Below, piece by piece: positions 29,258 through 31,544 of a stretch of DNA of 64,000 bases. This stretch comes from Gammaproteobacteria bacterium (GTDB lineage Bacteria; Pseudomonadota; Gammaproteobacteria; Chromatiales; Chromatiaceae), in contig JALORY010000018.1 in NCBI GenBank assembly GCA_025458675.1, positions 1-64,000 on the forward strand, in the 5' to 3' direction. Under the pieces are notes generated by a model. The model worked only from the letters and a program-made list of their open reading frames with translations, was not told where the DNA came from and made no database searches. A program made the translations under genes and the position numbers. Position 1 is the stretch's first letter. Every line of letters starts with the position of its first letter.

Positions 29258-30294
29258 GGTCGCCCCCCGGCCGGCGCCTGGCGCGGAGCCGCCGGCTTGG
29301 GCGGCGTCTGCTGGGCGTGCCCGGACGGCTTCTTCGGCGCCGCGGGCGCCGGCTTCGGCGGGGCGGCACCGGCAGTCGCCGTGGGCGGCGGGGCGACGGC
29401 CGGACGCGGGGGCTCCGCGGGTTGGACGGGCCCCGCCGTCCTCGCTTCCTCCTGGGCGCGGATCGCCTGCAGGGGAGTGACCGTCCAGACGAGGAGCACC
29501 TCGCGCGCCCGGTCGAGGTGGGCGCGCGGCGCCGCCAGGACGTAGGGGAAGGCCTCGCCGGCCCGGCGCGACACCGCCTGCACGGTCGCCACCGGGTAGC
29601 CTGCCGGGAAGGTCCCGCCCAGGCCGGAGGTGATCAGCACGTCGCCCTCGCGGATGTCGGCGTTGATGGGCAGGTAGGGCAGCTCGAGCTGGTTCGTCCG
29701 ACCCGTGCCGACCGCGATGGACCGCAGGCCGTTGCGCTGCACCTGGATCGGGATGGCGTGGGAGGGATCCGTAACGAGCAGGACCTGGGCACTGAACGGC
29801 GTGACCTGGACGACCTGGCCCATTACCGCGTCGGCATCCAGCACGGGCTGTCCTTCGTAGACCCCCGAGGTCGATCCCTTGTTGATGGTCACACGCTGGG
29901 TGTACGGGTCGAGGTCCATGGCGATGAGCTCGCCGATAAGGACCCGCTCGCCCACCTTGATGGAGGAGTCGAGCAGGTTGCGCAGCTGCAGGTTCTCCGC
30001 CTCCAGCGCCTCGAGCTTCTGCAGTCGCGCCTTGAGCAGCAGATTCTGCTCGTGCAGGTCGTCGGCCGCCTGTTGCAGTCGTTCGCGCGAGGCGAAGGCC
30101 TGCGACACCCACTCGGACGCGGCCACGGGCAGCTGGGCCAGCCGCTGAAGGGGATAGGTCACCACGACGAGCGCCGACCGCAACGCGTCGAGGTGGTGCT
30201 GGCGGTGGTCGAGCACCATGAGGGCGAGCGATACGAGCACCGCGGCGAGGACGCGGGCGTTGATCGACGGCCCTGCTGTGAAGATGAGCTTAAT
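29254..30294 (-). CDS. mreC: Rod shape-determining protein MreC (probable ATT start)
   Basis: Periplasmic scaffold that activates PBP2/RodA. The track starts at GTG 30240, but that cuts into the TM helix. Eighteen codons upstream, ATT (30294-30292) is followed by KLIFTAGPSINARVLAAVLV, which aligns with the known MreC N-terminus (M-K-P-I-F-S-R-G-P-S). An ideal GAGGTGA lies 6 nt before it and an in-frame TGA two codons upstream. The 346 residues comprise a TM helix, a coiled coil (about 60-105, LHEQNLLLKARLQKLEALEAENLQL) and two beta domains. An unusual Pro/Ala/Lys-rich tail of about 60 residues closes the protein. Confidence 0.93.
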   Translation of the reverse strand: MKLIFTAGPSINARVLAAVLVSLALMVLDHRQHHLDALRSALVVVTYPLQRLAQLPVAASEWVSQAFASRERLQQAADDLHEQNLLLKARLQKLEALEAENLQLRNLLDSSIKVGERVLIGELIAMDLDPYTQRVTINKGSTSGVYEGQPVLDADAVMGQVVQVTPFSAQVLLVTDPSHAIPIQVQRNGLRSIAVGTGRTNQLELPYLPINADIREGDVLITSGLGGTFPAGYPVATVQAVSRRAGEAFPYVLAAPRAHLDRAREVLLVWTVTPLQAIRAQEEARTAGPVQPAEPPRPAVAPPPTATAGAAPPKPAPAAPKKPSGHAQQTPPKPAAPRQAPAGGRP

Positions 30295-30332
30295 GGCTGC
30301 TCACCTCGGGCAGCCGGCGAAGGTGCGCCGCC

Positions 30333-31544
<1,212 letters not shown>

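Follow-up and report, generated by a model that had tools for sequence, protein, structure and literature searches.

The locus raises the question of where translation of mreC begins, the reading frame of this gene having no ATG, GTG or TTG from the in-frame TGA to the GTG at codon 19, as an earlier note on this DNA had stated and as our reading of the frame bears out. The window, i.e., the whole stretch of 64,000 nt that was analysed, contains the following features around the start of the gene:

30333..31382, minus strand: mreB, with an ATG start; matches to TIGR00904 and NF010539 above their cut-offs
30301..30307, minus strand: Shine-Dalgarno sequence GAGGTGA, from direct reading; 6 nt before the ATT and containing the in-frame TGA (30303-30301)
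30292..30294, minus strand: probable mreC initiation codon, ATT (AUU), from the frame reading and homology to the ATG that starts MreC in E. coli
29254..30294, minus strand: mreC coding sequence, 346 codons plus TGA; matches to TIGR00219 and PF04085
30238..30240, minus strand: GTG at codon 19, the first in-frame ordinary start of mreC, rejected as the start

The product is identified as MreC by TIGR00219 (194.6 bits, cut-off 92.75) and PF04085 (147.5 bits, cut-off 28), and mreC is the second gene of mreBCD, with the mreB stop 38 nt upstream of the ATT and an mreD-like hydrophobic frame, assigned to mreD by position only, after the mreC stop. Direct reading of the minus strand gives CCC-GAGGTGA-GCAGCC-ATT-AAG-CTC-ATC-TTC, then ACA GCA GGG CCG, for the 5′ end of the gene; GCAGCC (30300-30295) lies between the Shine-Dalgarno sequence (30307-30301) and the ATT (30294-30292), and the frame runs TGA-GCA-GCC-ATT-AAG, with the TGA two codons 5′ of the ATT and inside the Shine-Dalgarno sequence. 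The perfect GAGGTGA and its spacing are thus as the earlier note described them. Likewise, the N-terminus read from the ATT, IKLIFTAGPS, aligns from residue 1 with MKPIFSRGPS of E. coli, which confirms the match that the note had claimed. The gene therefore combines the lack of a usable ordinary start with an ATT at the conserved first residue, the features of a near-cognate start. Together with the conservation in relatives described below, the frame and the alignment uphold the proposal of an ATT start, and mreC of the source genome almost certainly begins at AUU 30294. Translation from GTG 30240, with the region of the ATT as an untranslated leader, would use the first ordinary start in the frame, yet it is highly improbable: codons 2-10 (K-x-[LI]-F-x-x-G-P-S) show conservation at the protein level from family to family and correspond to residues 2-10 of E. 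coli, the Shine-Dalgarno sequence is at the proper distance from the ATT, and in several relatives the first 20-25 codons of mreC contain no ordinary start. The ORF from this GTG has 328 aa and lacks 18 residues, which include about half of the membrane helix, as had been predicted, and the conserved K-x-I-F-x-x-G-P-S end.

The conservation of this start was evaluated in a pooled sample of the mreC 5′ ends of relatives, a class-wide sample and a smaller phylum-wide sample, in which many genomes are metagenome assemblies; ATT, ATC and ATA are collectively designated ATH, and a nearest-start rule was used to call ordinary starts that lie outside the aligned position. Among the 222 loci with a callable start, which come from about 130 gammaproteobacterial families and are not independent (family means and a tree, see below, correct only partly for kinship), the homologous codon is ATC in 79, ATT in 51, ATA in 19, ATG in 50, GTG in 19 and TTG in four, i.e., ATH in 149. 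By family, 76 of the 130 that could be determined contain only ATH, 51 only ordinary starts and three are mixed. The counts of ordinary starts include some families of the class with a different N-terminus and an ordinary start (e.g., the f13 and f95 lineages, Competibacter and Woeseia). When the count is limited to loci that keep the conserved x-K-x-[LI]-F end, ATH is found in 133 of 159 (ATG in 24, GTG and TTG in one each), and 65 of the 84 families with this end have ATH only. In most ATH loci (116 of 149, from 60 families), the stretch from the in-frame stop as far as codon +9 contains no ordinary start, and an upstream in-frame ordinary start is present in 22 of the 149. Additionally, the ATH codon of 137 of the 149 loci occupies precisely the alignment position of residue 1 of MreC from the source contig, which excludes a chance occurrence; since the preceding codon is highly variable (38 different codons), coding conservation begins at the ATH.

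The check that the earlier note had proposed, whether relatives keep the ATT or have ATG instead, gave a clear answer. The codon was ATT or ATC in all of the first 30 loci (the source genome, a further 28 genera from the same family and a single additional family) and in 50 of 54 loci from the family as a whole, the other four having ATG. The start that had been presented as an oddity of this locus is hence real but not local: most families sampled within the class retain ATH. ATH starts occur in Candidatus Thiodiazotropha endoloripes, Thiorhodococcus, Thiocystis violacea and Lamprocystis; in Methylomonas methanica and in assemblies of Methylococcus, Methylobacter and Methylophaga; and in Pseudomonas panipatensis, P. 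delhiensis, P. carbonaria, P. insulae and P. kuykendallii, so that the trait is common to Chromatiaceae, Methylococcales, Methylophaga and Pseudomonas. In a Pseudomonas-like genus represented by 25 species, mreC starts with ATC (23), ATA (one) or ATT (one), never with ATG, and is preceded by a conserved AGGAG-type Shine-Dalgarno sequence. ATG occupies precisely the homologous position in other lineages, among them E. coli. Outside of the Gammaproteobacteria the N-terminus of MreC is too diverged for an alignment of the start (e.g., L352 and L353 from the phylum-wide search) and the trait could therefore be traced in this class only; viral contigs searched with MreC of E. coli contained no match.

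The same distribution bears on whether an ATG could have been turned into ATT by an error in sequencing or assembly, or whether an indel could hide an upstream GTG (GTGAGCAGC). A single base change separates ATT from ATG and the source genome is a draft assembly in 138 contigs, but the same class of codon appears in some 200 independently sequenced genomes, single-contig ones included, as well as in cultured Thiocystis, Thiorhodococcus, Methylomonas and Pseudomonas. This already refutes an error for the class as a whole, and for the source contig there is next to no chance of it.

The mreB gene of the same loci served as a control. It starts with ATG in 179 of 185 cases and with ATH in none, indicating that neither these genomes nor our method yield ATH starts at large; as far as gene sequences can tell, the near-cognate start is specific to mreC as compared with mreB. 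Codon usage was also informative: ATC and ATT at codon 1 follow the isoleucine usage of the genes themselves, and ATA is over-represented there with respect to the isoleucine codons of the same genes (22 versus 13.1 expected, simulated p 0.007), as would fit a codon that isoleucine tRNA does not decode. The infC gene of the source genome starts at ATC (GCCGGAGGATTCTGCT-ATC; L089, positions 703-701 of the minus strand, contig C119), behind GGAGGA, and its start is ATC or ATA in those relatives of the source genome with a readable start. With infC and mreC both having near-cognate starts, the family of the source genome carries at least two such genes.

The two classes of mreC start differ in what precedes them. 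Shine-Dalgarno strength was calculated as the duplex energy of the 18 nt from -21 to -4 against the anti-Shine-Dalgarno sequence ACCUCCUUA, and is -7.2 kcal/mol for mreC of the source contig. By this measure, a simple 9-nt duplex energy that ignores mRNA structure and re-initiation after mreB, the median is -6.8 kcal/mol for ATH and -2.75 kcal/mol for ATG mreC (p 2e-12 over loci), with family means of -7.1 and -2.8 (p 2e-8), whereas mreB shows no difference between the same two groups (-3.5 versus -4.0, p 0.31). A Shine-Dalgarno core of four bases or more precedes mreC in 74% of ATH, 22% of ATG and 17% of GTG/TTG loci, with 5 nt as the commonest spacing in the ATH loci. In a tree built from MreB plus MreC (131 rows, with the first 12 mreC codons left out), the start class changed at least 15 times by an unrooted count, in which changes from ATH to ATG and back are taken together. 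From 10 independent pairs on supported branches, the stronger Shine-Dalgarno sequence accompanied ATH in about 7.6 and the opposite occurred in about 0 (median p 0.008; p 0.016 with a second threshold). As an example, within a single genus an ATC start (G213) follows a Shine-Dalgarno sequence of -13.3, and an ATG start (G083) one of -2.8. There are exceptions in both directions, namely a minority of ATG loci with a strong Shine-Dalgarno sequence (e.g., G175 and G196) and some ATH loci with a weak one (the Methylophaga lineage, -2.4 to -3.5). Start codon and Shine-Dalgarno strength evidently trade off against each other in mreC across these genomes, a coupling which suggests that selection acts, at least in part, on a fixed low rate of initiation.

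A neutral origin would explain part of these data: if re-initiation after the mreB stop delivered the ribosomes, the codon could be a relic drifting among ATT, ATC and ATA, as would fit a third base that varies among T, C and A near the isoleucine usage of the genes and the proximity of mreB upstream of mreC in many loci. Drift should, however, often produce ATG, which is found in none of the 25 species of the Pseudomonas-like genus and in only four of the 54 loci from the family of the source genome; the gap to mreB, alike in both start classes (medians of 77 and 70.5 nt), also argues against a re-initiation relic, and the coupling to the Shine-Dalgarno sequence is unexpected under neutrality. 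We thus consider a neutral relic unlikely.

Our preferred reading, which we hold to be quite probable overall, is that the start of mreC is near-cognate, like those of infC and sigR, and buffered by its Shine-Dalgarno sequence, and that it sets a low rate of MreC synthesis within the mreBCD operon; the rate-setting role itself is the likelier interpretation, held with somewhat less assurance. The strong Shine-Dalgarno sequence 6 nt upstream would place fMet-tRNA on the near-cognate AUU, where the mismatch at the third base would slow initiation and, by analogy with infC, pcnB and sigR, make the codon liable to be rejected by IF3; the weak start codon would be compensated for by the strength of the Shine-Dalgarno sequence. 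Overall, this would keep the output of MreC from the shared mreBCD mRNA low and fixed relative to that of MreB, and the AUG lineages, mostly with a weak Shine-Dalgarno sequence, could reach a similar end by another route. The low MreC output and the sensitivity to IF3 are what we infer, as is a role of stoichiometry as the reason for such a start. In E. coli, an excess of MreC leads to shorter, wider cells and is counteracted by MreD (PMC7793260).

The start could instead be regulatory, along the lines of the tie to initiation fidelity that the earlier note had suggested, with the level or activity of IF3 sensed at the AUU so that MreC and cell-wall elongation track the growth rate or the state of the ribosomes, in parallel to infC. 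IF3 does repress non-canonical starts (PMC5472188) and infC likewise starts at ATC or ATA in the source genome and its family; conversely, the ATG lineages have a weak Shine-Dalgarno sequence, as expected if what is kept is the rate and not the response to IF3. We regard regulation through IF3 as doubtful. A response of mreC to IF3 follows biochemically and may differ from what selection keeps; it is perhaps not itself selected, because the ATG lineages have a weak Shine-Dalgarno sequence instead. Equally tentative is a broader proposal, that mreC and infC are ancestral near-cognate-start genes that pre-date most family splits and were kept through the coupling to the Shine-Dalgarno sequence, tying wall elongation and cell shape to IF3 or the state of the ribosomes.

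To our knowledge, few bacterial genes have near-cognate starts. The infC gene of E. coli and relatives (AUU) resembles mreC in its near-cognate ATH start, its conservation over long evolutionary distances and its Shine-Dalgarno sequence, but differs in being autoregulated by its own product; we know of no role of MreC in initiation, so a feedback loop of the infC type would not be available to mreC. The pcnB gene of E. coli, which according to Binns and Masters in 2002 reportedly starts at AUU, an inefficient start limiting a protein harmful in excess, shares with mreC an inefficient near-cognate start and differs in function. The mreC gene of E. coli (b3250) is like that of the source genome in its orthologous product, operon place and homologous start codon, and unlike it in having ATG with a weak Shine-Dalgarno sequence (-3.0 kcal/mol). 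The infC (ATT) and sigR (GTC) starts are repressed by IF3, and sigR has a conserved strong ribosome-binding site (PMC5472188). As mreC, sigR of Streptomyces combines a near-cognate start and a strong ribosome-binding site within an operon, in which the partner protein RsrA is in excess; unlike mreC, its start is described for one genus (GTC in 32 of 34 species and GTT in two) and is GTC, not ATH, and its repression by IF3 is experimental, whereas that of mreC is proposed by analogy (PMC5472188).

From its sequence, mreC can be placed in the known class of near-cognate-start genes, its start being conserved with ATG as the alternative at the same position. As an essential cell-shape gene, it would rank among the most widely conserved near-cognate starts outside of infC; we found no earlier report of a near-cognate mreC start in the open-access literature. 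Gene finders limited to ATG, GTG and TTG will misplace an ATH start, in this case at GTG 30240, and it is likely that a great many genomes have a wrongly placed MreC N-terminus, a point of importance for cloning, tagging and structural work on a complex relevant to antibiotics. The repeated swap between a weak start with a strong Shine-Dalgarno sequence and AUG with a weak one also constitutes a natural experiment on how selection keeps a translation rate.

Two minor features were seen around the start codon. In a metagenome assembly of Halioglobus (L210, position 1501), mreC has GTT at the homologous codon, preceded by GGGAGGTG and with no ordinary start before codon 4, which could be either a GUU start or an assembly error. 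Additionally, C is strongly favoured directly before the ATH starts (96 of 149 loci at -2 and 80 of 149 at -1), where the preceding codon is often GCC or ACC.
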